A DNA stretch of 64,000 nucleotides from an uncultured Bacteroidales bacterium (GTDB taxonomy: Bacteria > Bacteroidota > Bacteroidia > Bacteroidales > CAIXZF01), in NCBI GenBank assembly GCA_903923925.1, contig CAIXZF010000061.1, positions 31,325 through 95,324 of the forward strand, read 5' to 3'. The position numbers and the translations under genes were made by a program. Below are positions 20,728 to 42,751 of the stretch, piece after piece; position 1 is the stretch's first letter; each line of letters begins with the position of its first letter. The notes under the pieces were generated by a model. It did not search any database. It was not told the origin of the DNA and saw only the letters and a list, made by a program, of their open reading frames with translations.

Positions 20728-21915
20728 TTGGATACTCCAGATGTTATTATACGTAAATGCGAAGAATTGGCTTTTGACCTCAATTTTACAAGAGCAAAAG
20801 AATGGAAAGCACAGGATGCAAGCCGGGTTTTAGTTGGCAATATGCCAATTTATTTCCCGCGAGAACTGGTACATGCGGCTAATGGTTTGTGTGTAGGAAT
20901 TTTGGGAGGAGGCGATAAGAAATTGATTATTAAGGGTGATGCCTATTATCAGTCGTATATCTGCCATATGCCCAGAAGTATTGTAGAACTTGTGCTGGAC
21001 GGTCATTTTGAAGGATTCGATGGTTTTATCTTTCCTTCGATCTGCGATGTAATCCGAAACCTTTCGGGTATGTTTCAGCTCATGGGAAAAGGTACATTCG
21101 TGAAATATCTCGACTACCCGCAGAATTTTTCGGCATCAGTCAGTGAGGATTTCTACATCAATGAACTTCAATATGTTCTCGACCAGATTTATGCTATAAA
21201 TAAGGTTGAAGTAACTGCCGAACGCCTTAAGAATTCCATTCAGCTGTACAACAAAAACCGCAGCTTGATCACAGAATTGTACGACATCCGTCAGCAGTTT
21301 CCATGGAGGCTTACGGCAGCTGATGTCTACCATATTGTTCGTGCCGGCTATGTGATTCCTGTGGAAGAGCATAACGAAATACTTGAAGCAATGATTCAGC
21401 ATATCCAGGTTGACAGAGGGAAGCCGGTCGACAAAATAAAGGTTATGGTGATGGGCGCTTTTTGTGAGCAGCCCCCGGTTGGATTGATAAAAACCATTGA
21501 AATGGCCGGCTGCTATATTATTGAGGATGATTTTCTCCTGGGAGCACGATGGGTACAGGGAGATATTGAAACGACTTCCGGCAATCCTATGCACGATTTG
21601 TGTATGGCATATCTCGAAAAGAGTACTTTTTCATCATCAGTCTATGATGTAAATAATCCCAAAGAAAACCGTTTAATGGAGCTTATTAAAAAAAGGAAAG
21701 TCGATGGAATTATTTTCGCAGCTCCAAGTTTCTGTGATCCTGCCCTTCTCGATCACCCAATCCTTCAGAAAGCCTGCAACGATCACCACGTTCGGTTTAT
21801 AAGCTTCCTTTACAGCGAAAATACCGGGCAGTTCAAGGTAATTAAGGAACAGGTAGGCACATTCTCCGATTCCATTAAATTATGGGATGAGCCGGTAGTA
21901 ATTAATAATCTTTAG
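20728..21915 (+). CDS. bcrC: Benzoyl-CoA reductase, ATP-dependent class I, gamma subunit BcrC (TTG start)
   Basis: MPIYFPRELVHAANGLCVGILGGGDKKLIIKGDAYYQSYICHMPRSIVELVL...FPSICDVIRNLSGMFQLM; size and order match bcrCBAD of Thauera-type enzymes. Confidence 0.9.
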   Translation: MDTPDVIIRKCEELAFDLNFTRAKEWKAQDASRVLVGNMPIYFPRELVHAANGLCVGILGGGDKKLIIKGDAYYQSYICHMPRSIVELVLDGHFEGFDGFIFPSICDVIRNLSGMFQLMGKGTFVKYLDYPQNFSASVSEDFYINELQYVLDQIYAINKVEVTAERLKNSIQLYNKNRSLITELYDIRQQFPWRLTAADVYHIVRAGYVIPVEEHNEILEAMIQHIQVDRGKPVDKIKVMVMGAFCEQPPVGLIKTIEMAGCYIIEDDFLLGARWVQGDIETTSGNPMHDLCMAYLEKSTFSSSVYDVNNPKENRLMELIKKRKVDGIIFAAPSFCDPALLDHPILQKACNDHHVRFISFLYSENTGQFKVIKEQVGTFSDSIKLWDEPVVINNL

Positions 21916-21939
21916 TTTTTACTTTTTACCAATCATTAT

Positions 21940-23217
21940 ATGTCAACAGGAGTTGCCAAAGAAAAAAGTATGATCATCCAGAAAGAGATGATCGCACAGC
22001 TCTCAAAGGAGTTAAGTATGGCCAAAGATACCGGGAAAAAGGTTGTTTATACCTTTGTACCTGGTAATATTTCCGAGCTCATTCTTTCTTTTGATATGTT
22101 ACCCGTTTACCCTGAAATAAATGCATTGCAGTCGGGAATGCGGAAAAAATCGGAAGGATTTATACGTGGGGCTGAAAAGCATGGTCATTCTGAAGATGTG
22201 TGCACCTATGTGAAATGCGATGTTGGGATGATGCTGGCGGGCAATATCGGACCTAACGGAGAAACAGTACCTCCGCCTGACTTGTTGTTGCTGAGCTATA
22301 CCGGTTGCTTCACATTCATGAAATGGTTCGAAACGCTGGAACGCCTGTATCCTGGTGTTCCGGTTGCCTTACTTCATACTCCTTACCAGGAAGCCGGTCA
22401 TATTACGCCGGAAATGACCGCTTACATGGTCAAACAGCTTAAGGAAGAAGTAATCCCCAAGATGGAAAAGGTTTCAGGAAAAAAATACGATGAGGAGAAA
22501 TTAAAAATGCACCTTCGGAACTCATCAAAGGTAGAAGAGTCTATCATAAAAATATTCGACTCTACAAAAAACAGGCCTTCTCCAATTGATGCCTATTTCG
22601 CAGGTGTATACTACATTGGTCCTATTAACAATGGTTTCAGAGGTACCTCAGAAGCTGTGGATTACTATGATGAACTCTATAAAGAAATCATGGTAAGAGT
22701 TCAGAAAGGATTAGGTCCGATTACACCTGAAGGTGAAATTGAAGAAGAACGCTTCAGACTAGTTGTAGAGGGTCCGCCGAATTGGACACATTTCAGGGAA
22801 TTCTGGAAACTTTTCTACGACATGGGTGCTGTAATCGTAGCATCATCCTATACCAAAGTGGGCGGAGTTTATGATATGGGCTTCCGTGTGAATCCTGATA
22901 AGCCACTCGAAAGTCTTGCTGAATACTGTATGAACTGCTACACAAACCTTAACCTGAATCAGAGGGTTGATCTTCTTTCAAACTGCATCACCAAATTTCA
23001 TGCGGATGGTTTTCTGGTGAATTCAATTAAAAGCTGCAACTCATTTTCTGCAGGGCAATTGATGATTATGCAGCAACTCGAACGGAAACTGGAGATTCCT
23101 GTTGGCTTTATCGAGTCTGACCTCGTTGACCCAAGGTATTTTTCATACTCAAATATTAAAAACAGGCTGGAATCCTTTTTCCAAATGCTTGAACAAAGAA
23201 AATTAATGGTTAAATAA
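21940..23217 (+). CDS. bcrB: Benzoyl-CoA reductase class I, beta subunit BcrB
   Basis: DMLPVYPEINALQSGMRKKSEGFIRGAEKHGHSEDVCTYVKCDVGMMLAGNIGPNGE...LLLLSYTGCFTFMKWFE. Confidence 0.92.
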   Translation: MSTGVAKEKSMIIQKEMIAQLSKELSMAKDTGKKVVYTFVPGNISELILSFDMLPVYPEINALQSGMRKKSEGFIRGAEKHGHSEDVCTYVKCDVGMMLAGNIGPNGETVPPPDLLLLSYTGCFTFMKWFETLERLYPGVPVALLHTPYQEAGHITPEMTAYMVKQLKEEVIPKMEKVSGKKYDEEKLKMHLRNSSKVEESIIKIFDSTKNRPSPIDAYFAGVYYIGPINNGFRGTSEAVDYYDELYKEIMVRVQKGLGPITPEGEIEEERFRLVVEGPPNWTHFREFWKLFYDMGAVIVASSYTKVGGVYDMGFRVNPDKPLESLAEYCMNCYTNLNLNQRVDLLSNCITKFHADGFLVNSIKSCNSFSAGQLMIMQQLERKLEIPVGFIESDLVDPRYFSYSNIKNRLESFFQMLEQRKLMVK

Positions 23218-23232
23218 TTAGCAAGCAGGCGA

Positions 23233-24615
23233 ATGAAGAAATATTATTTAGGAATAGATCTGGGATCAACAACCTCAAAAGCCATCATAATTGATGATGA
23301 TGATAACATTATAGGAAGGGGAATCACCAATACCAGGGCAAACTATACTGTAGCCACAGAAATTGCAAGGCTTGAAGCCATTTACAACGCCAGGTTTTCT
23401 TTATTGAAGATGAAGTTGGGCGACGAAATAACAAGTAAGCCCGAGTACAACCGGTACATACAGGACCTTGAATCAGTGTTTCAGTACCTTCAGTTTAAAC
23501 GCAGGCTCGACAGGCTAAATGTACAATTTATTGATACAATCGAATCCAGCTTTCAGGATGAGAAAAAATTAGCAGTTTCTGGTTATATTGAGCATATAGT
23601 CAACACAATAGAGCCTGCCATTAAGGATGAATATATGAATTCAAACCTCGGTGGAAAGAATCAGTTTTTCAGAGATATTGTCAGCGAAAAATTCAATAAA
23701 GAACTTAATTTTATTGATAAAAACTACTTTGAGCCACTGATGATGGTTTACGACAAGAGCATAATCTCGGCAGAAAATGAGCTAACTGAGTACGACTTCA
23801 AAGAGCTTATTTTTCAGTCGATGGAACTGCTGAATGATAAATATGCCGGTCTTGAAAATACCTCTTCTGAGCATAGTAACGTTCAGTTCGACAATGAGTT
23901 GAATCTTTTAAAGGGAAATTACAAAGTTATTTACGATTCGCTGAAAGATCATATCAGTTTCGTTGCTAATATGGATATCCATATTACAAATATGGTTGGC
24001 ACAGGCTATGGCAGAGCCTTACTGCCATTCCCAGAAAAATCAATCCGTTCAGAAATCCTCTGCCATGCGTTTGGGGCACATGCGATATTCCCTAAAACTA
24101 AAACGGTACTCGATATTGGCGGTCAGGATACAAAAGCAATACAAGTTGACAGTCATGGACTGGTTACCAGTTTTCATATGAATGACCGTTGCGCTGCAGG
24201 ATGTGGAAGATATCTCGGTTATATAGCCGATGAATTCAACATTTCTCTTAACGAGCTTGGGCCGCTGGCAATGGAAGCTACCAATGAGGTAAATATTTGT
24301 TCAACCTGTACTGTATTTGCCGCAGCTGAGATCAGGGAATTAACCAATGTAGGGCAGAAACGAAGCGATATTCTTGCAGGGCTTCACAGAGCAATTGTGA
24401 TGCGTGCAATGTCCTTGCTGGCCAGATCTGGCGGTGTAAGGAACGAATTCACCTTTACCGGTGGAGTTGCAAGAAATCAGGCGGTATTAAAGTATGTTTC
24501 TGAACTTGTATATAAAAACTACGGTAACGATATCAAAATTAATATTCACACAGATTCTATTTTTATGGGAGCTCTCGGAGGCGCAATGTTTGCCAGGAGA
24601 AGTGCCGGTAATTAA
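23233..24615 (+). CDS. bcrA: Benzoyl-CoA reductase class I, alpha subunit BcrA (ASKHA ATPase/activator, long form)
   Basis: GIDLGSTTSKAIIID, DIGGQDTKAI, NDRCAAGCGRYL, NICSTCTVFAAAEI; 460 aa, with a large insert distinguishing BcrA/BadF from the short subunit. Confidence 0.9.
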   Translation: MKKYYLGIDLGSTTSKAIIIDDDDNIIGRGITNTRANYTVATEIARLEAIYNARFSLLKMKLGDEITSKPEYNRYIQDLESVFQYLQFKRRLDRLNVQFIDTIESSFQDEKKLAVSGYIEHIVNTIEPAIKDEYMNSNLGGKNQFFRDIVSEKFNKELNFIDKNYFEPLMMVYDKSIISAENELTEYDFKELIFQSMELLNDKYAGLENTSSEHSNVQFDNELNLLKGNYKVIYDSLKDHISFVANMDIHITNMVGTGYGRALLPFPEKSIRSEILCHAFGAHAIFPKTKTVLDIGGQDTKAIQVDSHGLVTSFHMNDRCAAGCGRYLGYIADEFNISLNELGPLAMEATNEVNICSTCTVFAAAEIRELTNVGQKRSDILAGLHRAIVMRAMSLLARSGGVRNEFTFTGGVARNQAVLKYVSELVYKNYGNDIKINIHTDSIFMGALGGAMFARRSAGN

Positions 24616-24645
24616 AGTGAATACAGTTTAACCAGGAGAAAATCA

Positions 24646-25476
24646 ATGAATCAGCATATTTATACACTCGGAGTAGATGTAGGCAGCAGCCTGATAAAAG
24701 TAGTTCTAATGGACTATTCAGATGAACCCGTCATTTTGGATAAAAGAACGGAAAAAATAAGGAAAAGGAATCCTGAAATGGTATCCGATTTGCTTATCGA
24801 CCAAATTCTCATTGACCACAATCTGACCTTCGCGGATATTGCCTACCTGGCATCGACTGGAGAAGGCGAAATGCTTGAACGTAAACTCGGGCACTTCTAC
24901 AGCATGACCACACATGCAAGAGGAGGCGTATTTCTTTGCCCCGGTTCGCTCACCGTAATCGATATGGGAGCTCTTTTTGTGAGGGCTATCAAAATAAATG
25001 AGGCAGGTAAGGTTCTGGATTACAAAATGACCGGACAATGCGCTTCAGGCTCCGGACAGTTCATCGAGAACATTTCACGTTATCTTGGGCTGTCAATTGA
25101 AGAAGTTGGAGCCACTTCATTAAAATCAAAAACTCCGGAAGTTCCCTCAGGAATCTGCTCTGTACTGGCCGAAACTGACGTTATTAATATGGTTTCCAGA
25201 GGCATATCAACACCCGACATTATTAAAGGAATTCATCTATCTATTGCCAATAAAATCATCAGGCTCCTCACCTCTCTCAAAGCAGAGTCGCCTGTAGTTC
25301 TTACCGGAGGAATGGCTATGAATAAGGGCATGATTCAGGCAGTTCAGGAACTTATTGAAGAAAGCAAATTAGGACTGGTAATCAAAGCTGATCCAGATTC
25401 CATTTTTGCCGGAGCAATAGGAGCTGCATTGTGGGGTGGATTCCGCTACTATAAATTAAATTCTACTAAAGATTAA
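24646..25476 (+). CDS. bcrD: Benzoyl-CoA reductase class I, delta subunit BcrD (ASKHA ATPase, short form)
   Basis: GVDVGSSLIKVVLMD, IDMGALFVRAIKI, TGQCASGSGQFIENI, SGICSVLAETDVINMVSRG; 276 aa, fourth gene of bcrCBAD. Confidence 0.9.
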   Translation: MNQHIYTLGVDVGSSLIKVVLMDYSDEPVILDKRTEKIRKRNPEMVSDLLIDQILIDHNLTFADIAYLASTGEGEMLERKLGHFYSMTTHARGGVFLCPGSLTVIDMGALFVRAIKINEAGKVLDYKMTGQCASGSGQFIENISRYLGLSIEEVGATSLKSKTPEVPSGICSVLAETDVINMVSRGISTPDIIKGIHLSIANKIIRLLTSLKAESPVVLTGGMAMNKGMIQAVQELIEESKLGLVIKADPDSIFAGAIGAALWGGFRYYKLNSTKD

Positions 25477-25502
25477 TCAGCTTAAAATCTCAGTTTAGCG
25501 TT

Positions 25503-27584
25503 ATGACCAATCCGCTGGATGCCTTATTTAAACCCAAAGCAGTAGCTCTTATCGGAGCTTCGCAGAAAGAATTATCGATAGGGAATGTAATCATTAAAAA
25601 CCTCTTGTTTTACAACTTCAATGGCCCCGTATACCCCATTAACCCCAAAGTTGAGGAGATCAGAGGACTAAAGGCCTATCCTTCTATTCTCGCAGTTCCG
25701 GGAGATGTTGACCTTGTTCATATTGTTATTCCTCCACCATTTGTTCCGGAAGAAGTTGAGAATTGTGGTAAGAAGGGGGTTAAAGCTATAATCGTAAATA
25801 CCGCTGGCTTTGCTGAAATGGGAGCTGAAGGGGAAGCCCTGCAGAATGATTTTCTTTCCAGAGCAAAGAAATACGGAATCCGGGTTGTTGGGCCTAATTG
25901 CCAGGGAATCATTAATAGCGACCCAAACTTTAAGGCCTATTGCAATTTTACTTTTACCTTTCCGGAGCCAGGCCATATTTCAGTTGTTGCTCAAAGTGGC
26001 GGTGTCGGAGCAGTAATTCTCCAGGCGTTTTATGATATGGGAATAGGCGTTGGGATGTATGCTTCTAATGGCAATGGCTCTGATGTTTCTATCCCGGAAA
26101 TCATGCGATATTATGGTGAGGATGATAATTGCCGGGTAGTTGTTCTTTATGTTGAAAGTCTTGATAACCCTAAGGAATTCATGGATGTTGCCCGTGAAGT
26201 ATCGAAGAAAAAACCTATTCTAGCGATAACAGCCGGACGTACAGATAAGGGTGCTGAGGCTTCCCGTTCACATATTGGCGGACTCGCCGGAAGCATTTCA
26301 ATGGAGCTGATTTTCAAAAAAACCGGGATATTAGGTTTCACGAATCAGCACGATTTATGCAATGCTGCTGTTGCCTTTTCGTATCAACCAATTCCCCAGG
26401 GAAACAGAGTAGGCATCATTACAAATACAGGAGGCCCTTCGGTAATTGCAATCGATGAACTTGTAAGTTGTGGTTTGGAGTTACCTCAGCTTTCTGAAAA
26501 AGCAGCTTCTCAATTAAAGGAAACAATGCTCGAATCTGCTTCCATCCATAATCCGCTTGATGTTGTTGCCACAGCTGGTCCGAACCACTTTAAAAGCGCA
26601 CTTGAAGTAATGCTCAATGAGCCACAATACGATAGTATTTATATCAATTTTGTTACTCCTCCTTTTGTTGATTGTGAAAGTGTTGCAAAAGAGATTGTGA
26701 GTGCTGCAGCTAAATCATCAAAACCGGTGGTTTGCAATTACATGACCGATAAACAAAAATGGCAGGGAACTTCTTCAATATTCAAAGCAGGCGAAATTCC
26801 ATGCTTCGATTTTGCAGAAACTGCCGCTCGTGCCTTATCCGACCTGGTACGTTATAAGCTGATGCGTTCCAAAAAAGCAGGAGAAATACGCGCATTTACC
26901 GATGTCAACAAGGAATCTGTTGCAGCAATTATAAGTCAGGCTAAAAGTCATAACCGGGAAGTACTATCAGCTCGTGAAGTATATAATATAATTAGTGCTT
27001 ATAACATTCCGGTGGCTCCCTGGAGCATTGCCTCAGATGTCACTCAGGCAATAAATTCTGCTGAATCACTGGGATTTCCGGTTGTAATTAAAGTTGACTC
27101 TGAAAAGTACATCCATAAAAGCGATGTTGATGGTGTTGCAGTAAATATTCGCGATGCCGCTGCTGTAAGAGAAGTTGTTGAGCGGATGCAGAGAACATTA
27201 GGTAATGATATTCAATTCTTTATCCAGCAGTTTCTGCCTCATCACAGGGAATTAATAATTGGAGCAAAGGCTGAAACGGGTGTTGGTCATCTTATAATGT
27301 TTGGTTTAGGTGGCATTTTTGTGGAAGTACTTAAAGACGTAGCCTTTACATTAAGTCCTGTAACAGACGCTGAAGCCTCAGAATTAATTGACTCAATTAA
27401 AGCAGTTGCTTTGCTCCATGGATTCCGTGGTGAAAAAGGCGTAAATACTGAACTTTTAATCGAAATAATACAACGAGTTTCTATGCTGGTTGTAGATTTT
27501 CCGGAAATCAGGGAGCTGGATATTAATCCGCTGTTTGCTTATAACGACACAATGTTCGCAGTTGATGCCAGAATTATTATTTAA
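25503..27584 (+). CDS. ADP-forming acyl-CoA synthetase (fused alpha-beta, acetate-CoA ligase (ADP-forming) family)
   Basis: CoA-binding N-terminus (LFKPKAVALIGASQKELSIGNVIIKNL), VAQSGGVGAVILQAF, C-terminal ATP-grasp (FPVVIKVDSEKYIHKSDVDGVAVNI). Confidence 0.88.
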   Translation: MTNPLDALFKPKAVALIGASQKELSIGNVIIKNLLFYNFNGPVYPINPKVEEIRGLKAYPSILAVPGDVDLVHIVIPPPFVPEEVENCGKKGVKAIIVNTAGFAEMGAEGEALQNDFLSRAKKYGIRVVGPNCQGIINSDPNFKAYCNFTFTFPEPGHISVVAQSGGVGAVILQAFYDMGIGVGMYASNGNGSDVSIPEIMRYYGEDDNCRVVVLYVESLDNPKEFMDVAREVSKKKPILAITAGRTDKGAEASRSHIGGLAGSISMELIFKKTGILGFTNQHDLCNAAVAFSYQPIPQGNRVGIITNTGGPSVIAIDELVSCGLELPQLSEKAASQLKETMLESASIHNPLDVVATAGPNHFKSALEVMLNEPQYDSIYINFVTPPFVDCESVAKEIVSAAAKSSKPVVCNYMTDKQKWQGTSSIFKAGEIPCFDFAETAARALSDLVRYKLMRSKKAGEIRAFTDVNKESVAAIISQAKSHNREVLSAREVYNIISAYNIPVAPWSIASDVTQAINSAESLGFPVVIKVDSEKYIHKSDVDGVAVNIRDAAAVREVVERMQRTLGNDIQFFIQQFLPHHRELIIGAKAETGVGHLIMFGLGGIFVEVLKDVAFTLSPVTDAEASELIDSIKAVALLHGFRGEKGVNTELLIEIIQRVSMLVVDFPEIRELDINPLFAYNDTMFAVDARIII

Positions 27585-27614
27585 CTGAAAAAAACTTTAA
27601 AAAGCACAAGAAAA

Positions 27615-28574
27615 ATGGAAAATTCTCCCCTAAAAATCGGAATCATCGGACTCGGTCCCATTGGCCAAACTCTTGCAGTACATCTTAAAGATGCAGGCGC
27701 AGAACTGGCGATTACGGATCTTGACAGGGAAAAACTAAACCTGATAAGAACTCAGGGAATAGAACTGGTTGGCAGATTTGAAAAGAAATCATATTTCAAG
27801 TATGTCTATTATTCCATTGAGGAGATGCTAGAGCATGACTTTGATATCCTGATTTCCGCTGTTAAAGACTACCATGTCGACAGCCTGGTCAGGTTAATAA
27901 AGCAAAATCTGAAAAAAGATGTTTACCTGCTCAGTGCTCAGAATGGTATTGATATCAGGAAGAAATACCAATGTCTTTTCCCTGAATCCTCAATTCTCCG
28001 GATGGTTATCAATTTCGCCGGAAACCTTCAGGCACCAAATGTCGTTGGGATTAATTTTTTCAATCCGCCCAATTACATTGGTTCAATGGACGACTCCCAG
28101 CTTAAACTGGCAAAAAGATTAGCTGACACGCTTACCAGTGTGGACCTTGAAACAGAACAGGTTACTTCTTTTAAAATCATTGACAAAATCTGGGAAAAAA
28201 CTATTCTCAACGCTGCCCTCAGCCCACTTTGTGCCATTTCCCGACTAACCATGAAAGAGGCTATGGATAATGGAGATACACTGGAAATTGTTGAACAGAT
28301 ACTCTACGAAGCAGTGGAAGTTGCTAAAGCTGAAGAAATAACATTACCGGAAAACTTTGTGAAACTTGCCATAAGATATCTTAGTAATGCTGGTAATCAT
28401 ATGCCATCTTTAGCTGTCGACTTAATCAACAAAAGAGATACTGAGATTGATTATATGAACGGAAAGATAGTAAGTTACGGCAGGAAACATTATATAAAAA
28501 CACCGCTGAACCTGATTCTTACCAATCTCGTTAATGCTATTTCCTGTAAGAACGGAGTAGGAAGATGTAAATAA
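27615..28574 (+). CDS. 2-dehydropantoate 2-reductase-like (ApbA/PanE family) oxidoreductase
   Basis: IGIIGLGPIGQTLAVHLKDAGAELAITD Rossmann motif, NAALSPLCAISRLTMKEAM, C-terminal TEIDYMNGKIV typical of PanE. Confidence 0.75.
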   Translation: MENSPLKIGIIGLGPIGQTLAVHLKDAGAELAITDLDREKLNLIRTQGIELVGRFEKKSYFKYVYYSIEEMLEHDFDILISAVKDYHVDSLVRLIKQNLKKDVYLLSAQNGIDIRKKYQCLFPESSILRMVINFAGNLQAPNVVGINFFNPPNYIGSMDDSQLKLAKRLADTLTSVDLETEQVTSFKIIDKIWEKTILNAALSPLCAISRLTMKEAMDNGDTLEIVEQILYEAVEVAKAEEITLPENFVKLAIRYLSNAGNHMPSLAVDLINKRDTEIDYMNGKIVSYGRKHYIKTPLNLILTNLVNAISCKNGVGRCK

Positions 28575-28638
28575 TTTAAACATGTATGATAACAATCATA
28601 CATATACTAACTCTAAGAAATTTTAAGAAGTTACTATT

Positions 28639-29706
28639 ATGGAAAACAAAATGTATTCCTGGCAAATGACAGCATTGGATGCCGATTTTCAGCTTGTTGA
28701 GAGTCCGTTGCCTGAACTGGGCGATAATGAGGCTCTCATTAAAATTGCCGGTTGCGGAGTATGCCATACCGATCTGAGTTTCTGGCATTATGGTGTAAAA
28801 ACAAAAAAAGAACTACCATTAACTTTAGGCCACGAGATAAGTGGAGAAGTTGTTGCAGGACCTGCCGAATGGCTGGGTAAAAAAGTAATTATTCCAGCTG
28901 TACTTCCTTGCGGTACCTGCGAATTATGCAAAAAAGGCCGTAGTAATATCTGTCAGAACCAGCTTATGCCTGGTAATGATTTTCATGGTGGCTTTGCATC
29001 ACATATTAAAGTTCCTTATCAATTTCTTTGTCCTGTGCCACAGGAAGTTCTCGATAAATACCCACTTGAGAAACTTTCAGTTGTTGCGGATGCTATTTCT
29101 ACGCCTTACCAGGTAATTAAAAAATCGGAACTCGAAGAGGGCGATTTTGCAATTATTGTTGGTGTTGGAGGCGTTGGAATTTATGCCGCACTTATTGCAG
29201 GAATAATGGGTGCTAAAGTTCTGGCTCTGGATATTTCTGCTGAAAAACTGGAAATCGCCAGGCAGAATGGTGTTTCAGCTACCTTGAATATCAAGGATAT
29301 GGACATGAAATCTATCAAGGAAAATGTAAGAAGTATTGCAAAAGAACTTGGCGTTTCGCGTTTTGGCTGGAAAATTTTTGAAATTTCCGGTACTAAGGCA
29401 GGACAGGATCTGGCCTTCAATCTTATTACGTTCACTTCCACCTTATCAATTGTTGGTTTCACAATGGAAAAACCAGAAGTAAGACTTAGCAACCTAATGG
29501 CCTTCGATGCAAAACTAATCGGTACATGGGGCTGTAAACCTGAACTTTACCCCGAAGTCCTCGACCTTATTGCTAAAGATAAACTAATAATTGATTCATT
29601 CATTGAAACCTTTCCACTTTCGAAAATCAATGAAGTATTTAAAAATACATTAGAACACAAATACAAAAAACGTTCAGTATTGGTTCCGGATTTTAATACC
29701 CAATAA
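28639..29706 (+). CDS. had: 6-hydroxycyclohex-1-ene-1-carbonyl-CoA dehydrogenase (zinc-type ADH family)
   Basis: GCGVCHTDLSFWHYGVKTKKELPLTLGHEISGEVV, CGTCELCKKGRSNIC, GVGGVGIYAALIAGIMGAKVLALD; context with oah and dch. Confidence 0.85.
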   Translation: MENKMYSWQMTALDADFQLVESPLPELGDNEALIKIAGCGVCHTDLSFWHYGVKTKKELPLTLGHEISGEVVAGPAEWLGKKVIIPAVLPCGTCELCKKGRSNICQNQLMPGNDFHGGFASHIKVPYQFLCPVPQEVLDKYPLEKLSVVADAISTPYQVIKKSELEEGDFAIIVGVGGVGIYAALIAGIMGAKVLALDISAEKLEIARQNGVSATLNIKDMDMKSIKENVRSIAKELGVSRFGWKIFEISGTKAGQDLAFNLITFTSTLSIVGFTMEKPEVRLSNLMAFDAKLIGTWGCKPELYPEVLDLIAKDKLIIDSFIETFPLSKINEVFKNTLEHKYKKRSVLVPDFNTQ

Positions 29707-29725
29707 TGTTCTGATCCCGTTACCG

Positions 29726-29803
29726 CTGTAGAGACCTAGCATGCTAGGTCTCAAAGACGCAGCGTGCCAGGCATCAGAGACCTAGCATGCTAGGTCTCTA
29801 CAG
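29726..29803. repeat. 27-bp perfect inverted repeat whose arms are each built around a 22-bp perfect palindrome (GAGACCTAGCATGCTAGGTCTC)
   Basis: Left arm CTGTAGAGACCTAGCATGCTAGGTCTC (29726-29752); right arm 29777-29803 is its exact reverse complement; 24-bp spacer aaagacgcagcgtgccaggcatca. Confidence 0.95.
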
Positions 29804-29838
29804 ATAATAAATATAATTAATTAATATTCAAAATCAGA

Positions 29839-30933
29839 TTGCATATGTTAGCAAGCCATAATCTTGTAGAAACAGAATTTAAAGAAATCCTTTTCGAAAA
29901 ACGCCCATGTTTGGATCATTCCGGAAATGCAGTTCCGGGTTTGTATAATGCGTGGATCATCCTTAATAATCCGCAACAATATAATTCCTACACAACGGAA
30001 GCCGTAAAAGAAGTTATTCTTGCAATGCGTGCAGCCTCCAACGACAGAACTGTTGTTGCCGTTGTATTTACAGCTGTTGGCGACAAAGCTTTTTGCACGG
30101 GAGGAAACACAAAGGAATATGCAGAGTATTATGCTTCAAATCCTCAGGAATACAAGCAATATATGCGTTTATTCAACGACATGGTTTCATCAATTCTTAT
30201 GAACGATAAGCCAGTTGTTAACAGGGTAAACGGCATGCGTATAGGTGGTGGCCAGGAAATTGGCATGGCCTGTGATTTTTCAATCGCTCAGGATCTTTCG
30301 CGCTTTGGTCAGGCAGGTCCGAAACACGGCAGTGCACCTGATGGAGGCTCTACTGATTTCCTTCCTCTTTTTGTCGGCATAGAGAATTCCATGTTTTCCT
30401 GTACCGTTTGTGATCCATGGTCGGCACACGAAGCGCTCAGATATGGTTTGCTTACCGAAATCGTTCCTGCTCTAAAATTAAATGGAGAATTCATTCCAAA
30501 CCCAATGGTTCACGTCGATAAGTGGGTTAACGAAAGAGGTGATATTATTTATGGCAAAAGCAAATCCGGCGAGGAGCTTGTAAAAGCCAAAGAAACACTG
30601 AAAGCATCAGTTGTTGATTTGTCAGCCCTTGATGAAGCAACAGAAAAAATTTGCACTAAGCTTATGTACCTGATGCCAAATTGTTTAAGCAAAACTATTA
30701 ATTCTCTGAGAAAACACAAACTGGAACATTGGGATAAAAATAAAGAAAGTAACAGGGACTGGTTAGCACTAAATATGATGACAGAGGCTAAGGCAGGATT
30801 CAGGGCTTTTAATGACGGGCCAAAGGGGCAACGGGAAGTTGATTTTGTTAAATTGAGGCAAATGCTTGCCCAGGGACACGAATGGAATGATGATCTGATC
30901 AGGGCAATTTCACCCCAATTTCAAGCTGAATAA
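29839..30933 (+). CDS. oah: 6-oxocyclohex-1-ene-1-carbonyl-CoA hydrolase (BamA/BzdY/Oah)
   Basis: Crotonase fold with VVAVVFTAVGDKAFCTGGNTKEYAEYY, NGMRIGGGQEIGMACDFSIAQDLSRFGQAGPKHGSAPDGGSTDFLPLFVG; typical of Oah. Confidence 0.92.
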   Translation: MHMLASHNLVETEFKEILFEKRPCLDHSGNAVPGLYNAWIILNNPQQYNSYTTEAVKEVILAMRAASNDRTVVAVVFTAVGDKAFCTGGNTKEYAEYYASNPQEYKQYMRLFNDMVSSILMNDKPVVNRVNGMRIGGGQEIGMACDFSIAQDLSRFGQAGPKHGSAPDGGSTDFLPLFVGIENSMFSCTVCDPWSAHEALRYGLLTEIVPALKLNGEFIPNPMVHVDKWVNERGDIIYGKSKSGEELVKAKETLKASVVDLSALDEATEKICTKLMYLMPNCLSKTINSLRKHKLEHWDKNKESNRDWLALNMMTEAKAGFRAFNDGPKGQREVDFVKLRQMLAQGHEWNDDLIRAISPQFQAE

Positions 30934-30953
30934 CAAACAATATAAACGCGGAA

Positions 30954-31727
30954 ATGGAAAAAATAAAAGTTGTATATACCCATGATGACTCTGTTGCAAG
31001 GATTTTTCTTGATGACGGAAAAGGCAATGTTCTCGACAATATTATGATGACAGAGCTGATTTCTCTGCTATCATCATTTAAAACAAACAAGGACATCAAG
31101 CTGATTACTTTCGAAGGCGCCGGGAATAATTTTTCCTATGGAGCCAGCGTGGAAGAGCATACAAAAGACAAGGCTGCTGCAATGCTCGAAAGTTTCCACA
31201 AATTGTTCTATACCATCATCGATTTACATATTCCTACAATGGCGAGGATCTCCGGACAATGTCTCGGAGGAGGTTTCGAATTACCACTTGTTTGCAATTT
31301 TATCTTTGCCGATAAGACTGCTAAGGTTGGTCAGCCTGAAATTTTACTCGGTGTATTTGCGCCTCCAGCCTCTGTGATGCTGCCATTAAAAATCGGTCAT
31401 GCAAGGGCTGAAGAATTACTTCTGACCGGGAAGATTATCGGAGCTGATGAAGCTAAGGCAATCGGTCTTTTTAATGATGTATTTGAAGACAGAGATACTA
31501 TGGATACCGCACTCGACACGTGGATCAGGAAAAACATTTGCGGCAAGAGTGCTTCATCCCTGAAATATGCTGTAAAAGCTGCCCGTTCCTCCTTCGATTT
31601 TTTCATGCAAAGAAATCTTCCTGTTTATACTAACATGTTTATCAATGAATTAATGGAAACAGAAGATGCTAATGAAGGCATTAATTCATTTATAGAAAAG
31701 CGCAAACCGCTGTGGACAAATCGTTGA
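30954..31727 (+). CDS. dch: Cyclohexa-1,5-diene-1-carbonyl-CoA hydratase
   Basis: Crotonase with GAGNNFSYGASVEEH, GQCLGGGFELPLVCNFIFADKTAKVGQPEILLGVFAPPAS; adjacent to oah. Confidence 0.88.
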   Translation: MEKIKVVYTHDDSVARIFLDDGKGNVLDNIMMTELISLLSSFKTNKDIKLITFEGAGNNFSYGASVEEHTKDKAAAMLESFHKLFYTIIDLHIPTMARISGQCLGGGFELPLVCNFIFADKTAKVGQPEILLGVFAPPASVMLPLKIGHARAEELLLTGKIIGADEAKAIGLFNDVFEDRDTMDTALDTWIRKNICGKSASSLKYAVKAARSSFDFFMQRNLPVYTNMFINELMETEDANEGINSFIEKRKPLWTNR

Positions 31728-31784: not shown

Positions 31785-33044
31785 ATGGAAAATAACAATA
31801 AACTGGAAAAAACAGAAATCGTAAAACTTGAGTCGGTAGCTGCCTTGCGCAAGACCATGGATGATTATTTCATGCGTTTGAAGGATGCCGCTGAAAACGG
31901 CACTGCAAAAATTGCCTGGTGTACCAGTGTAGGTCCGGCTGAATTACTTTATTCAATGGGGTTCGAGGTATATTTCCCCGAAAACCACGGAGCTATGCTG
32001 GGTACTACAAAAATCGCAGATAAATATATCCCTTCGGCAGTAGTAAAAGGTTATTCTCCTGATATTTGCTCATACCTTACCACAGATATTGGAGCCTTTC
32101 TCCAAAACGAAACTCCGCTTCAGAAAATGGGGTTCAAATCTGTACCCAAACCTGATATTCTTGTTTACAACACAAACCAATGCCGCGAGGTTGCCGACTG
32201 GTTTGGCTTTTATGCAAAGCATTTTGATGTACCCATTATTGGTGTAACAACTCCTCTGAATATTGGTGAACTTTCGCCGGCCATTATTGATAGTGTGAGC
32301 AAACAAATCATGGATCTGGTTCCGGAACTTGAGAAAGTTGCAACACAAAAATTCGACATGGATAAATTCCGTGAAAGAGTTGGCTTGTCGCATGATGGTT
32401 GCGCCCTTTGGCGCAAAGTTCTTGAAACAGCCAGGCATAAACCGTCGCCAATAAATTTCTTTGATTCAGCAATCCATATGGGGCCTATTGTTGTAATGCG
32501 CGGCACTCAATATGCCGTGGATTACTATACGATTCTGCTTGCAGAACTTCAGGAACGTGTGAAAAATAATACAGGATCAGTACCTAAAGAGAAATTCAGA
32601 ATATACTGGGATGGGATGCCTTTGTGGTACAAGTTAAGCAGCATGGCAAAACTGTTTGCAAAACTTGACGCTTGTATCGTTGCTTCAACCTATTGCAACA
32701 GTTGGATTTTTGATGATCTTGATCCGGCAGAGCCCTTTATTTCTTCAGCATTAGCTTACAGCAAACTCTTTATTGTAAGGTCTGATGAAGTAAAAGAAGA
32801 TGTATTGGAAAACCTGCTCAAAGACTTTTCTATTGATGGGATTATCTATCATGAATCAAAAACATGTGCAAGAAATTCCAACAACCGTTACGGCTTGCAG
32901 AACCGTCTGTTCGAAAAAACTTCTGTTCCTTTCCTGGAAATTAACGGTGATCTGAATGATCCACGCTGTTTCAGTGAGGAACAAAGCATTATTGCAATTG
33001 AGACTTTCATTGATCAGCTGGCGGGACAGAAGGCATTGGTTTAA
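31785..33044 (+). CDS. 2-hydroxyacyl-CoA dehydratase/BCR large-subunit superfamily protein, single-subunit (YjiM/double-cubane-cluster-protein-like)
   Basis: Superfamily features (WCTSVGPAELLYSMGFEVYFPENH, SPDICSYLTTDIG, IIYHESKTCARNS, LEINGDLNDPRCF); paired only with one activator gene. Confidence 0.75.
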   Translation: MENNNKLEKTEIVKLESVAALRKTMDDYFMRLKDAAENGTAKIAWCTSVGPAELLYSMGFEVYFPENHGAMLGTTKIADKYIPSAVVKGYSPDICSYLTTDIGAFLQNETPLQKMGFKSVPKPDILVYNTNQCREVADWFGFYAKHFDVPIIGVTTPLNIGELSPAIIDSVSKQIMDLVPELEKVATQKFDMDKFRERVGLSHDGCALWRKVLETARHKPSPINFFDSAIHMGPIVVMRGTQYAVDYYTILLAELQERVKNNTGSVPKEKFRIYWDGMPLWYKLSSMAKLFAKLDACIVASTYCNSWIFDDLDPAEPFISSALAYSKLFIVRSDEVKEDVLENLLKDFSIDGIIYHESKTCARNSNNRYGLQNRLFEKTSVPFLEINGDLNDPRCFSEEQSIIAIETFIDQLAGQKALV

Positions 33045-33079
33045 AAATTACGAATAATAATTGCTGTAGCTAAACATAT

Positions 33080-33823
33080 ATGTACAGACTCGGATTAGAT
33101 CTTGGTTCTTCCTACACAAAAGGTGTTGTTGTCGACGATCAGAATAAGATGGTCGACAACTATTGTGTTAAAACAGGATACAGTTTCGAGAAAGCTGCCG
33201 CAAAGATTATTGATAATTTTTCTGAAAATTATCAATTGCAGTCACCGTATTATACCTGCGGATATGGACGCGAGCAACTGTCGGTTCCATGTTCCTCAAA
33301 TTCTGAGATTATAGCCCTGGCAAAAGGTGTTTTTGAGCTGTACAATAGAAAATGTTCAATTATTGATATTGGCGGACAGGACACAAAGTACATTAAAATC
33401 AATGAGTCAGGACAGGTTGATAAATTCAAAATGAATCGGAAATGTGCAGCAGGCACCGGTTCTTTTCTGGAAGAAATCGCCTTCAGGCTTGATATCTCAC
33501 CACAGGAATTCAACGCATTTGGCGAACAGGCAACAGACGAAGTAAAAATTAACAGCTTCTGCACTGTTTTCGCAGTATCCGAAATAATTGGCATGATAAA
33601 AAACGGAACTTCACTGCCAAACATTATTGTCGGAATTTACAGTTCAATTGTCACAAGGTGCATCGAACTTTCACCAGTAGAGGATTATCTGGTTATTACC
33701 GGTGGTTTACCTGATACTCATCCGCTAATTGTAAAATTATTTAGCAAAGTTTTTACAAACTCGGGCAGTCCGGAACATTCACAGTTCCTGGCAGCTTATG
33801 GAAGTGTTTTATTAAATAAATAA
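33080..33823 (+). CDS. 2-hydroxyacyl-CoA dehydratase-type activator ATPase (HgdC/YjiL-like)
   Basis: GLDLGSSYTKGVVVDD, DIGGQDTKYIKI, MNRKCAAGTGSFLEEIA, NSFCTVFAVSEIIG. Confidence 0.85.
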   Translation: MYRLGLDLGSSYTKGVVVDDQNKMVDNYCVKTGYSFEKAAAKIIDNFSENYQLQSPYYTCGYGREQLSVPCSSNSEIIALAKGVFELYNRKCSIIDIGGQDTKYIKINESGQVDKFKMNRKCAAGTGSFLEEIAFRLDISPQEFNAFGEQATDEVKINSFCTVFAVSEIIGMIKNGTSLPNIIVGIYSSIVTRCIELSPVEDYLVITGGLPDTHPLIVKLFSKVFTNSGSPEHSQFLAAYGSVLLNK

Positions 33824-33850: not shown

Positions 33851-35122
33851 ATGAACAACAATAAAAAAGAAGTAGTAATCGTAAGCGCAGCCCGCACCCC
33901 AATAGGCAAGCACGGTGGGTATTACAACAATCTTCCAGCCGAAGATCTGGCAGTCCTGGCTGTTAAAGAAGCTATCCTTCGCTCAGGTATCGACCTGGCG
34001 AAAACTAAAATCGACCAGGTAATTGCCGGTATGATTTACATTGACTCTCAGAACCAGCAAATTTATCTTCCCAGGAACGTAGCTGTGAGAGTGGCTGATT
34101 TATTAAATGATAAAGATAATCTGAAGACTGCCCCGGGAAATACCACACTTCGTATTTGTGGTACAGGTTTCCAGGTTCTTGCGGATGCATTCGACCATAT
34201 CACCGCTGATGGCCCTAATAAAGCAAATTGCATCATTAGTTTTGCAACAGAGAATATGTCGCAAACCAACCTCATCCATCAGGGAAGGCGTAAACGCGAC
34301 AGCGTTTGGGATTTCGAGGATGCGCCCACAAAAGATTATCTGATGGAAGGCTTCAATCATAATCTCTTTAAGACATTGATGCCTAAAACAGCTGACGTTT
34401 ATGGAAAGCAAACCGGCATTACACGTAAGGATTGTGACGAGTTCTCATATCTCAGCCATAAAAGAGCAATCGAGACTCAGAAAAACCAATGGAACAGATT
34501 TAAAGATTCAAACGACCATAACTATTTGATGGGAATTTTTACTGTTGATACTGTTGATAAAGCTGGAAATACGCTTTGTGTATGGCGGGATGAAGGCGTT
34601 AAATATGATGTTAACCTCGAAGAACTTTCAAACCTCAGGCCATTGCTGGGTAAAGGTGGATTAGTTACTCCAGGTACTGCAAGTCAGATAAGTGACGGCG
34701 CTGCTGCTGCAGTACTTATGGATAAAGATTTTGCTGATAAAAATAACATTCCATACCTGGCAATTATCAAAGGATACCAATTCTCCACTGTAGATCCTGA
34801 AATAATGGGACAAGGGCCAGTGCCTGCTGTCAGAGATCTTCTTAAACAACTTAATATGCAACAGTCGGATGTCGACCTTTTCGAGGTTAATGAGGCATTT
34901 GCAGCACAGTATCTTGGTGTGGAAAAAGAACTTGGCCTGCCACGGGAGAAAACAAATGTTAATGGTGGTGCAATTGCCATGGGACACAACATTGCCGCAA
35001 CTGGTTTAAGAATTACTACCGATCTGGTATATGAATTAAAACGCCGCGGACTTAAAACCGGGATTGCTTCAGCATGTATTGGCGGTGGTCAGGGTGGAGC
35101 TATTTGCGTTGAAATCGTATAA
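33851..35122 (+). CDS. Thiolase (acetyl-CoA C-acyltransferase family)
   Basis: VIVSAARTPIGKHGG, RICGTGFQVLADA nucleophilic Cys, NVNGGAIAMGHNIAATG, ASACIGGGQGGAICVE. Confidence 0.9.
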   Translation: MNNNKKEVVIVSAARTPIGKHGGYYNNLPAEDLAVLAVKEAILRSGIDLAKTKIDQVIAGMIYIDSQNQQIYLPRNVAVRVADLLNDKDNLKTAPGNTTLRICGTGFQVLADAFDHITADGPNKANCIISFATENMSQTNLIHQGRRKRDSVWDFEDAPTKDYLMEGFNHNLFKTLMPKTADVYGKQTGITRKDCDEFSYLSHKRAIETQKNQWNRFKDSNDHNYLMGIFTVDTVDKAGNTLCVWRDEGVKYDVNLEELSNLRPLLGKGGLVTPGTASQISDGAAAAVLMDKDFADKNNIPYLAIIKGYQFSTVDPEIMGQGPVPAVRDLLKQLNMQQSDVDLFEVNEAFAAQYLGVEKELGLPREKTNVNGGAIAMGHNIAATGLRITTDLVYELKRRGLKTGIASACIGGGQGGAICVEIV

Positions 35123-38957: not shown

Positions 38958-41774
38958 ATGCAACAAATAAATCTGAAAATAAATAATAAACAATACCACT
39001 TTCTTGTTAGCGCCCATGAAATGTTATCACACGTTATCCGTGAAAAAGCCGGATTAACAGGTACCAAAATCGGATGTGAACAAGGAAGCTGCGGAGCCTG
39101 CACTGTACTTTTAAACAACGTGGCTGTGTTAAGTTGTATTACACCTGCCGTACGCTGTGATAATGCCGAAATTACTACTATTGAAGCTCTCGCAAAAGAC
39201 GGAAAACTCCATAAACTTCAGGAGAAATTCGTCGAAAAAGGTGCAATACAGTGCGGATTCTGCACACCTGGAATGGTGATGACAGCCTTAAGCCTCGCTC
39301 CCAATTTAAATAAAGAAGCCGGCATTGACTCGATGAAACAGGAAATCAAGGAAGGCTTGTCGGGCAATCTTTGCAGATGCACTGGCTACACAAAAGTAAT
39401 TGCAGCAGTGGCTGAATATGCACTTGAATTAAACGTTACCCGGAATTCTGATATCATTAGTGAGAATAATACCAATTGTCCAAAATCAGCAGTTGGAACG
39501 CCCAGACCCTATATCGAAGCTCAAAAGAAAGTACGTGGCGCCGCTGAATATGCTGATGACATCTCAACCAGAAATGCGCTGCATTGTAAATTCCTGAGAA
39601 GTATTTACCCACATGCAAGAATTGAAAATATTGATGTATCAGAAGCACTTAAATTACCTGGTGTTCATTTTATTTCCACCGGTATTGAAATCCCTGTAAC
39701 ATTTGGTGTACTCCCGATTTCTCAGGATGAAACGGCTATGGCTGTTAACAAAGTCCGGTATATTGGCGAAATTGTAGCAGCTGTGGCTGCTGATACTGAG
39801 GAAATAGCTGTTGAAGCATGCAGCTTAATCAAAGTGAAATACAGTGTATTAAAGGAATTTCTGACTATCGATGAATCTCTTGATGATGCGGGAGAGGATG
39901 AAAAGATTCATGAATACGGAAAGTTCAACAACAACATTCACAAGAAGGCTGAATTACGTTTTGGTGATCAGCAGCAAGGCCTCAGAGAAGCTGAAGTAAC
40001 AACAAAAATGTCCTTTGAATTTGATGGAATCAATCATGGCTTCACCGAACCCCATGCTGCAACTGCTTATTGGGATGAAAATGGACTTACAATAACTACT
40101 GCTACCCAGGTTCCGCATTATTTGCATCGTGCACTGGCAAAAGTAATGGAAGTTCCACTAAGCAGAGTTCGGGTTATTAAACCCTACCTTGGAGGCGGTT
40201 TTGGAGGCAAAAGCGATCCCTTTGCACATGAAATGATTATTGCCCATTTAGCACGAAAAACAGGAAGACCTGTGAGAGTCCGCTTGTCGCGGGAGGAAGT
40301 TTTCCTCACAAATCATGGCCGTCATCCATCAAAAATGACTGTTGAAATGGGTATTTCCAAAGATGGATTTTTGCAGGTTCTCGACGCTGATATCGCAATT
40401 GATGGTGGTGCTTACGGAAGTTTTGGTGTGGTAACTTCATATTACAATGGCGTCTTGCTTCAGGCGCCTTACAAACTCAGCAATTTCGGTTTCCGCACCT
40501 ACCGTGTATACACCAACAAGCCGCAATGCGGGGCTATGCGTGGCCATGGTGCTGTAAACTCCCGCTTTGCAGTGGAATCCCTGATTGACGATCTCGCTCA
40601 TAAAATTCAAATGGATCCTTGTGAATTGCGAATGCAGAATTTTCTCGATTCTAACTCTCTGACGGTTGGTCAATACCGGATTACATCAAACGGAAGCCGC
40701 GAATCTCTTCAGAAAGTGATGGAACAATCGCATTGGAAAGAAAGAATCGGTAAAATGGAAAAGGGGAAAGGCCTTGGCGTAGCCTGTGGTTTCTTTATCA
40801 GTGGCAGCGCCTTACCTATAATCTGGAACGAACTTCCACAATCTGTTGTTCATTTGAAACTCGATTTCGACGGCAGAGTTCTCGTAACATCAGGCTCCAG
40901 CGACATAGGTCAGGGTAGCGATACTATGCTCGCGATAATTGTTTCGGAAGTGCTCGGACTTTCTATCGACAATATTTTTGTGCTTGGCGCCGATACACTT
41001 TTAACTCCAGTTGATTTTGGAAGCTATTCAAGCCGTGTTACTTTTATGGCAGGTAACGCTGCAAAAGATGCAGCCGGAAACCTTAAAAAAGAGATCATTC
41101 AATCTATTGTAACAAAGTTTGAAATAAATCCTGACGAATTGAATTTTCATGATAACAGGATTTTTACCAACGATAAAACTATTGACCTTTCCTGGATGGA
41201 AGCTGTTGATATCCTAATGGCTAAACGCGGGGCTGTGAGCGTAAGCGGTAAATACATTTCACCTAAACTCGGTGGCGATTTTAAAGGAGCCGGTGCCGGG
41301 CTTAGTCCATCGTATTCATTTGGTGCTGTAATCGCCGAAGTGGATGTGGATACTGATACAGGCCAGGTAAAAGTAACAAATATCTGGGGAGCCCATGATT
41401 GCGGCAAAGCGCTCAATCCACTTGCCGTCCAAGGTCAGCTCGAAGGCTCCTGGCATATGGGACTCGGACAAGCTATTAGTGAACAGATGAAATATTATAA
41501 AGGACTATTATTCAACAATAATTTCCTCGAATATAAAATCCCAACTTCTCTCGACACTCCTGACATTCATGCCAACATTATTGAAACCATAGATCCGGAA
41601 GGACCTTTTGGTGCTAAAGAAGCGGGCGAAGGTGCAATTCATCCGGTAATTCCTGCCATTGCCAATGCAATCTACAAAGCTGTAGGCGTAAGGATAACTA
41701 AATTACCTGTGAACCCTGAAGATATCCTTGCAATGATGAAGCTGCAAAAAACAAGTGGAGGAAATTCAAAATGA
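38958..41774 (+). CDS. 4-hydroxybenzoyl-CoA reductase, fused gamma (2x[2Fe-2S]) and alpha (molybdopterin) subunits
   Basis: CEQGSCGACTVLLNNVAVLSC and CGFCTPGMVM...CRCTGYTK in residues 1-160, then the xanthine dehydrogenase-family Mo domain (GGGFGGKSDPFAHE, GQGSDTMLAIIVSEVLG, EGAIHPVIPAIANAI). Confidence 0.85.
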   Translation: MQQINLKINNKQYHFLVSAHEMLSHVIREKAGLTGTKIGCEQGSCGACTVLLNNVAVLSCITPAVRCDNAEITTIEALAKDGKLHKLQEKFVEKGAIQCGFCTPGMVMTALSLAPNLNKEAGIDSMKQEIKEGLSGNLCRCTGYTKVIAAVAEYALELNVTRNSDIISENNTNCPKSAVGTPRPYIEAQKKVRGAAEYADDISTRNALHCKFLRSIYPHARIENIDVSEALKLPGVHFISTGIEIPVTFGVLPISQDETAMAVNKVRYIGEIVAAVAADTEEIAVEACSLIKVKYSVLKEFLTIDESLDDAGEDEKIHEYGKFNNNIHKKAELRFGDQQQGLREAEVTTKMSFEFDGINHGFTEPHAATAYWDENGLTITTATQVPHYLHRALAKVMEVPLSRVRVIKPYLGGGFGGKSDPFAHEMIIAHLARKTGRPVRVRLSREEVFLTNHGRHPSKMTVEMGISKDGFLQVLDADIAIDGGAYGSFGVVTSYYNGVLLQAPYKLSNFGFRTYRVYTNKPQCGAMRGHGAVNSRFAVESLIDDLAHKIQMDPCELRMQNFLDSNSLTVGQYRITSNGSRESLQKVMEQSHWKERIGKMEKGKGLGVACGFFISGSALPIIWNELPQSVVHLKLDFDGRVLVTSGSSDIGQGSDTMLAIIVSEVLGLSIDNIFVLGADTLLTPVDFGSYSSRVTFMAGNAAKDAAGNLKKEIIQSIVTKFEINPDELNFHDNRIFTNDKTIDLSWMEAVDILMAKRGAVSVSGKYISPKLGGDFKGAGAGLSPSYSFGAVIAEVDVDTDTGQVKVTNIWGAHDCGKALNPLAVQGQLEGSWHMGLGQAISEQMKYYKGLLFNNNFLEYKIPTSLDTPDIHANIIETIDPEGPFGAKEAGEGAIHPVIPAIANAIYKAVGVRITKLPVNPEDILAMMKLQKTSGGNSK

Positions 41775-42751
41775 CTGTAATCTCCGAAAATAAATACATC
41801 AGCCCGAATTCTGTTGAACAGGCTGTTTCAGCAGCTGTTGAACACAAGGGAAGCTACCGCTACATCGCCGGTGGAACTGATGTTATGGTAAATAAGTTTC
41901 AGGGAAATGATACTGCTGATCTGCTGATTGATTTAACCGGAATTCAAGGATTGAAAGAAATCCTGAAAACAGATACTCACATTATAATAGGAGCCTTAAC
42001 AACACTGGAAGAATTGCAGAATCAGCAATTGCTTGCCACGCATTTCCCGATGCTGCCTGAAGCCGCTAAATCTGTTGCATCACCAACTATCCGGAAATCG
42101 GCAACTCTTGGTGGTAACCTGCTCTGCGAAAACCGCTGCATTTTTTATAATCAGAGTGAATGGTGGAGGGAAGCTGCGGGCAGATGCCTGAAATGTAATG
42201 GAGATATTTGCCTTGCTTCAGGCGGCAATAAATACTGTTATTCGAAATTTGTATCCGATATTGCAGTTGTATTGATAAGTTTGAATGCTGAAATCGAAAT
42301 AATTAATGAGCATGAAACTTCGGTTATTCCATTGGAAACCATTTATTCCGGTGATGGCATTAATCCAGTGTTGTTACCTAAAACTTCGATTATCAAATCA
42401 ATATATATCCCATTAATCGACGGCAATAGAAGTGCATTCAAAAAACTCAGAAAACGTGAAACCCTCGATTTTACTTCACTCACAACAAGTCTTACTATTA
42501 AAAACTCCGGATCTGTCAGGATCGTCCTTGGTGGTGCTCATGCAAAACCTGTTATAGTTGATGGTTCTGTAGAAGATGATCTGGAAGTATTGTTCTCACA
42601 AGTTGTTTCAAATACCAGAATTATTGAAAACGACACCTATTCAAGATCGTACAGAAAAGACATGATCCGCGTTTTCCTCAAAAGAAGCTTTGTTGAATTG
42701 AATTCAAAATCCCCATACTCAATTACTGGATCAAATGAACCTCAAAAATAA
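41771..42751 (+). CDS. hcrB: 4-hydroxybenzoyl-CoA reductase beta subunit (FAD + extra [4Fe-4S])
   Basis: FAD_binding_5-type fold (YRYIAGGTDVMVN, ATLGGNLL) plus insert C123-x15-C139-x7-C147-x8-C156, the HCR-specific 4-Cys loop; 4-bp overlap with the preceding gene. Confidence 0.88.
   Translation: MTVISENKYISPNSVEQAVSAAVEHKGSYRYIAGGTDVMVNKFQGNDTADLLIDLTGIQGLKEILKTDTHIIIGALTTLEELQNQQLLATHFPMLPEAAKSVASPTIRKSATLGGNLLCENRCIFYNQSEWWREAAGRCLKCNGDICLASGGNKYCYSKFVSDIAVVLISLNAEIEIINEHETSVIPLETIYSGDGINPVLLPKTSIIKSIYIPLIDGNRSAFKKLRKRETLDFTSLTTSLTIKNSGSVRIVLGGAHAKPVIVDGSVEDDLEVLFSQVVSNTRIIENDTYSRSYRKDMIRVFLKRSFVELNSKSPYSITGSNEPQK

Follow-up and report, generated by a model that had tools for sequence, protein, structure and literature searches.

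We identified a gene pair, encoding a 419-residue protein (X419) and a 247-residue activase (A247), that is real, widespread and undescribed as a single-subunit enzyme in the open-access literature searched. That literature yielded no description of a single-subunit 2-hydroxyacyl-CoA dehydratase, which is not proof of absence. Judging from its lineage, cluster ligands and gene context, the pair is probably an ATP-activated 2-hydroxyacyl-CoA dehydratase with a single kind of large subunit. An aryl-lactyl-CoA is a credible but tentative candidate for its substrate.

The pair lies in the window (the whole stretch of 64,000 nucleotides that was analysed), which belongs to contig C61 of a MAG of 4.6 Mb that is 100% complete and was assigned to Bacteroidota through its relatives. 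Both genes are co-directional and closely spaced within a bcrCBAD operon, with gaps of 57 bp between dch and X419, 35 bp between X419 and A247, and 27 bp between A247 and the following thiolase. The operon consists of bcrCBAD, an ADP-forming acyl-CoA synthetase, an ApbA/ketopantoate-reductase-type dehydrogenase, had, oah, dch, X419 and A247, followed by a thiolase, a HADH/ECH fusion, an acyl-CoA dehydrogenase, a 4-hydroxybenzoyl-CoA-reductase-like enzyme, an SDR and a second thiolase (Table 1). The initial annotation had described a 419-aa subunit and a 247-aa activator between dch and the thiolase, and both the open reading frames and their placement are borne out.

Table 1. Positions in the window of X419, A247, the invariant cysteine codons and the surrounding operon genes.
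Feature	Position	Strand	Evidence
bcrC-bcrB-bcrA-bcrD, class I benzoyl-CoA reductase (context)	20728..25476	+	TIGR02263/02260/02261, TIGR02259
ADP-forming acyl-CoA synthetase, candidate for 2-hydroxyacid activation	25503..27584	+	ligase model, PDB 8wzu
ApbA/ketopantoate-reductase-type dehydrogenase, candidate (R)-2-hydroxyacid dehydrogenase	27615..28574	+	ApbA/ApbA_C, PDB 2ew2, 3wfi
had, oah, dch, ring-opening part of the benzoyl-CoA pathway (context)	28639..31727	+	TIGR03201, TIGR03200, TIGR03189
X419, 419-aa HGD-D (HadB-type) single large subunit	31785..33044	+	HGD-D, HadB model, PDB, AF2/Foldseek
Cys46 codon (WCTS), invariant in 77 relatives, one off a DCC distal ligand column	31920..31922	+	
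Cys95 codon (DICS), proximal [4Fe-4S] ligand = HadB C84 / BzdO C95	32067..32069	+	alignment; PMC11971306
Cys133 codon (NQC), proximal [4Fe-4S] ligand = HadB C117 / BzdO C128	32181..32183	+	alignment; PMC11971306
Cys304 codon (TYCNS), invariant, column of BzdN C263 (DCC distal ligand)	32694..32696	+	alignment; PMC11971306
Cys361 codon (KTC), proximal [4Fe-4S] ligand = HadB C346 / BzdO C380	32865..32867	+	alignment; PMC11971306
A247, 247-aa ATP-dependent activase (HgdC/HadI/DCCP-R type)	33080..33823	+	TIGR00241, PDB 1hux, adjacency
Thiolase adjoining A247, candidate for acetyl-CoA + benzoyl-CoA release	33851..35122	+	TIGR01930
3-Hydroxyacyl-CoA dehydrogenase/enoyl-CoA hydratase fusion, divergent, 821 aa	35191..37656	+	weak FadB/HADH/ECH matches

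Equivalog models were matched above cut-off by bcrC, bcrB and bcrD, while bcrA fell below (428.6 against a cut-off of 578). The models for had and oah were passed; dch scored 212.7 against 292.5 and was below. The ADP-forming synthetase matched a 4-hydroxybutyrate-CoA ligase model at 508 bits, below cut-off, and PDB 8wzu at 3.9e-127. The nearest solved structures of the ApbA-type protein, which has ApbA and ApbA_C domains, are 2ew2 and 3wfi, the latter of which we take to be D-mandelate dehydrogenase. The thiolase next to A247 reached 308 bits against a cut-off of 240.55. The HADH/ECH fusion is weak to all FadB/FadJ models, with a top score of 100 bits. In the 4-hydroxybenzoyl-CoA-reductase-like enzyme (window 38958-42751), the [2Fe-2S] and Mo subunits are fused in one 938-aa protein.

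X419 is a member of Pfam HGD-D (2.2e-58). Models, solved structures, fold and tree agree in grouping it with 2-hydroxyacyl-CoA dehydratases, on the side of their catalytic, HadB-type subunit. Among curated models, X419 scored highest with HadB (2-hydroxyisocaproyl-CoA dehydratase alpha subunit; 226 bits, cut-off 750), followed by BcrB (TIGR02260; 155 bits, cut-off 486.55), BzdO (86 bits) and DCCP (NF040772; 53 bits, cut-off 350), none of them above cut-off. Six relatives from other genomes gave the identical ranking. The gene family is covered by no curated NCBIfam model, and X419 falls outside the BcrB equivalog as well, sharing 28% identity with the BcrB of its own operon. The top sequence match in the PDB was 3o3m_A (HadB), at 6.9e-51. 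An AlphaFold2 model (pLDDT 91, pTM 0.90) was closest to HadB in Foldseek (TM 0.88/0.92), ahead of MbdO and BzdO (0.86-0.87) and DCCP (~0.75). In a tree of HGD-D proteins, the X419 family forms one clade (support 1.000) inside the branch of B-type catalytic subunits, near HadB and the HAD-type subunits, with DCCP and YjiM on the opposite side; support is low at some nodes close to HadB (0.36-0.44), which leaves the exact sister group of the clade tentative.

The initial annotation had counted eight cysteines, and X419 has exactly eight, at positions 46, 95, 133, 206, 297, 304, 361 and 395. Five (C46, C95, C133, C304 and C361) are invariant across 77 aligned relatives, with one gap at C361. The other three, C206, C297 and C395, are not invariant and were ruled out as ligands. 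Ser48 and Glu66, in the columns of HadB Ser37 and Glu55, which we take to be active-site residues, are also invariant in the 77 relatives. The Ser is kept in HadB and the other HAD-type subunits examined, whereas BcrB has P and MbdO has A in this column. For Glu65 of BzdO, which matches HadB E55, an active-site role is given in PMC11971306. The three proximal cysteines of X419 align with C95, C128 and C380 of BzdO, the ligands of its catalytic [4Fe-4S]-OH2 cluster (PMC11971306). X419 is a HadB-type subunit with the three Cys ligands and the Ser/Glu pair of a HAD enzyme.

The double-cubane ligand positions used for comparison were those of BzdN (C36, C73, C100, C263, C293 and C327; PMC11971306). 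C304 stands in the C263 column, and C46 stands one residue before the C36 column within an ungapped stretch. In the alignment, X419 has no counterpart of C293, the sixth ligand. Position 331, near C293, is V in 58 of 77 relatives including X419, C in 10 and N in 7. The DCCP cysteine set thus held up in part: the three proximal ligands and the C263 column are there, whereas the C36 equivalent is offset by one and the C293 equivalent is missing, leaving X419 without the six Cys ligands of an [8Fe-9S] cluster. C46 and C304 are two invariant cysteines beyond those of the B-type and dehydratase subunits compared, and with them a modified cluster in X419 is possible.

A247 scored 161 bits with TIGR00241 (cut-off 125) and matched Pfam BcrAD_BadFG at 5.1e-31 and HgdC (PDB 1hux) at 1.1e-31. 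Both cluster Cys motifs are kept, CAAGTG (C122) and CTVFA (C161), and A247 qualifies as the HgdC/HadI-type activase expected of a HAD system. An activase adjoins X419 in 67 of 80 scored loci. Elsewhere it is cut by a contig end (two loci), separated from X419 by an inserted ORF (L027, L074) or fused to an ApbA-type dehydrogenase, by Pfam in L082 (11812-13665) and by tblastn position in L093, where a 614-aa ORF has its activase match at 12781-13536. Four bzd- or bcr-linked loci (L075, L087, L090, L092) have no separate activase beside X419, and among the 80 scored loci none was found anywhere near X419 in L058, L073 and L080.

The initial annotation had also described one large subunit with one activator and no partner, and this is upheld by the own genome and by two closed chromosomes. 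The whole own genome encodes three HGD-D proteins, BcrC, BcrB and X419, and offers no HadC-type second large subunit except BcrC. Among 43 genomes that carry a relative, ten contain no HGD-D protein besides X419, among them the closed chromosomes CP070727 (L039) and CP070825 (L052). Searches of the own genome and these 43 did not reveal an unlinked partner subunit as a regular feature. Pairing of X419 with BcrC was rejected, since X419 is also kept in genomes without class I BcrB. To our knowledge, every 2-hydroxyacyl-CoA dehydratase and class I benzoyl-CoA reductase characterised so far combines two distinct large subunits, and electrons pass from the cluster of one to the cluster of the other. 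A homomer of X419 would need a new electron route.

Relatives of X419 were found on at least 80 genome contigs, and the pair with its activase recurs in many anaerobic phyla (organism names are those in the MAG records). One relative is encoded by Desulfocarbo indianensis SCBM (L086). Across phyla the neighbours are acyl-CoA ligases, genes of beta-oxidation and 2-hydroxyacid dehydrogenases that belong to three unrelated types. In Desulfobacterota loci, the genes are, in order, a GlcD/GlcF-type flavo-iron-sulfur dehydrogenase, X419, A247, an AMP-forming acyl-CoA ligase and a thiolase. Aminicenantes loci have X419, A247, an ADP-forming synthetase and a Na+/solute symporter; L035 and L037 also encode an Ldh_2 dehydrogenase upstream. 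Several Planctomycetota/Verrucomicrobiota have a zinc alcohol dehydrogenase, FadJ, X419 and A247. In the bzdNO loci L075, L087 and L090, the order is synthetase, X419, apbA, a HisC-like aminotransferase and apbA. A Nramp-family-like membrane protein, a possible substrate transporter, is encoded directly upstream of X419 in L015 (2640-3902) and L029 (8704-9978).

Within 6 kb of X419, a 2-hydroxyacid dehydrogenase of GlcD/F, Ldh_2 or ApbA type was present in 37 of 73 loci, an acyl-CoA ligase in 49 and a gene of thiolase/FadJ type in 39, compared with 3, 1 and 8, respectively, among 235 ORFs further away; this enrichment is partly circular, since the reference genes and categories were taken from those same neighbourhoods. 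No module genes were found in 10 of the 73 loci. X419 also occurs in genomes without sign of a nearby benzoyl-CoA pathway, and the substrate may therefore vary by lineage.

The class of ring reductase was surveyed in 24 genome handles, some of them duplicates. Class I BcrB was above cut-off in nine X419 genomes, and seven other X419 genomes have a BamB-like protein, at least 80% identical to an L019 AFOR, which itself matched BamB (structure 4z3w) across residues 1-650 at 1281 bits. The block acs-apbA-had-oah-dch-X419-A247 is kept with either reductase where the contig allows. Because X419 is retained across this switch between classes, it is unlikely to be part of the class I reductase. Of the two alternatives, class I BcrB and a BamB-like class II reductase, Bacteroidota with X419 carry one or the other, the remainder of the operon block being unchanged (window 20728-31727; G040, G059, G063, G104, G106, G107, G110).

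Compared with HadBC/HadI, the (R)-2-hydroxyisocaproyl-CoA dehydratase, X419 likewise has the HadB fold, the three Cys ligands, the Ser37/Glu55 positions and an activase of the same family, but it has no HadC-type subunit, carries two extra invariant cysteines and scores far below the HadB cut-off. FldBC/FldI (phenyllactyl-CoA dehydratase) is grouped here with HadBC, the features compared being those of HadB. DCCP/DCCP-R of Carboxydothermus and YjiM/YjiL of E. coli are alike in having one subunit with an activase, the same proximal ligands and one distal ligand column, whereas X419 is on a different branch, is without the third distal Cys, has C46 out of register and contains the B-type PEN motif. 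With BcrB, BzdO and MbdO, X419 shares the B type, the active-site Glu and the three ligands of the [4Fe-4S]-OH2 cluster (PMC11971306); it differs in having Ser48 in place of P or A and in requiring no heteromeric partner. An orphan "singular" gene of the benzene-degrading sulfate reducer BzS1, BzS1_13720, is ~30% identical to FldB according to excerpts of PMC13416013 (2026); those excerpts do not propose a single-subunit enzyme for it, and we liken it to X419 by that description.

The gene layout, the missing partner, the lineage, the cluster ligands and the recurring neighbourhood are established by the analysis, whereas the subunit composition, chemistry, stereochemistry and substrate of X419 are inferences from here on. 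X419 most likely forms a homodimer of HadB-like subunits, with its own activase as the direct reductant. In the Bacteroidota operons, an aromatic amino acid would yield an oxo acid that the ApbA-type dehydrogenase reduces to an (R)-2-hydroxy acid, which the ADP-forming ligase would convert to the CoA thioester (R)-3-aryl-2-hydroxypropionyl-CoA, that is, phenyllactyl-CoA or 4-hydroxyphenyllactyl-CoA. ATP hydrolysis by A247 would drive one low-potential electron to the [4Fe-4S] cluster of X419 held by C95, C133 and C361. This cluster would generate a ketyl radical on the 2-hydroxyacyl-CoA, with Ser48 and Glu66 at the active site, and loss of water would give the 2-enoyl-CoA. Cinnamoyl-CoA or coumaroyl-CoA would then pass through beta-oxidation, by the neighbouring thiolase and HADH/ECH protein, to benzoyl-CoA or 4-hydroxybenzoyl-CoA, with ring reduction next. 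When the own genome was searched with models, no hit to a canonical benzoate-CoA ligase exceeded its cut-off, in keeping with benzoyl-CoA coming from another source. Alternatively, benzoate itself could be activated by the ADP-forming synthetase, and the products of the thiolase and HADH/ECH genes could act on 3-hydroxypimelyl-CoA. This dehydratase account leaves C46 and C304 without a role; C304 lies in a distal double-cubane ligand column and C46 beside one.

A more far-reaching version, which we regard as doubtful, is that X419 is a homodimeric catabolic enzyme whose five invariant cysteines hold an unusual cluster, making a single type of subunit both the relay and the user of the low-potential electron on an aryl-lactyl route to benzoyl-CoA. 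Such a cluster may, for example, be a [4Fe-4S] site extended toward the lost distal cubane by C46 and C304. The initial annotation saw in the pair a candidate DCCP-like reductase. On such a reading, an X419 homodimer with a double-cubane [8Fe-9S] cluster would use ATP to reduce a small or alicyclic substrate at low potential. The single subunit with a dedicated activase is indeed the DCCP arrangement, both C304 and C46 are invariant at or one residue from distal ligand columns, and ten relatives have a Cys near the place of the sixth ligand. We nevertheless consider this quite unlikely, and DCCP membership was ruled out by the model score (53.3 against 350), the fold, the position in the tree among B-type subunits and the incomplete Cys set; the sixth ligand position is mostly V, as in X419, and the HAD-type Ser/Glu pair is kept. 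The gene context points to 2-hydroxyacyl-CoA dehydration in preference to the open-ended low-potential reductase of that proposal, whose link to aromatic acyl-CoA metabolism is supported.

Dehydration of a non-aromatic substrate, a branched or linear 2-hydroxyacyl-CoA, with only incidental co-location with ring-degradation genes, is unlikely but carries more weight than the DCCP-like enzyme. It would suit the wide spread of X419 in lineages without a nearby benzoyl-CoA pathway, beside FadJ, thiolases and transporters. It sits poorly with the tight, conserved position within acs-apbA-had-oah-dch in Bacteroidota of either reductase class, and with the bzd genes and aminotransferase next to X419 in L075, L087 and L090. 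It is very improbable that X419 is an alternative class I subunit that replaces BcrB and pairs with BcrC to act on a different aromatic acyl-CoA. X419 does lie in the bcrCBAD operon, where BcrC is the only heteromeric partner available in the genome, but X419 and A247 are kept in Bacteroidota with BamB-like proteins in place of class I BcrB, and its presence in genomes without any other HGD-D protein, above all the closed chromosomes, strongly disfavours such pairing.

A widespread single-subunit dehydratase would test the need for a relay subunit at all, and it would add a point to the proposal that sub-clusters were lost from a double-cubane ancestor (PMC11971306). It would also be a candidate link from aromatic amino acids to the benzoyl-CoA pathway in anaerobes outside the well-studied Proteobacteria. 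Should the cluster prove unusual, X419 would represent a third architecture beside DCCP and the heterodimeric dehydratases and reductases, and would open a route, so far unrecognised, that leads from phenylalanine or tyrosine via aryl-lactyl-CoA and cinnamoyl-CoA to benzoyl-CoA.

Further downstream, the window encodes a 2686-aa repeat-rich protein (54108-62168), probably secreted or surface-located, with many similar repeats of roughly 85 aa each.
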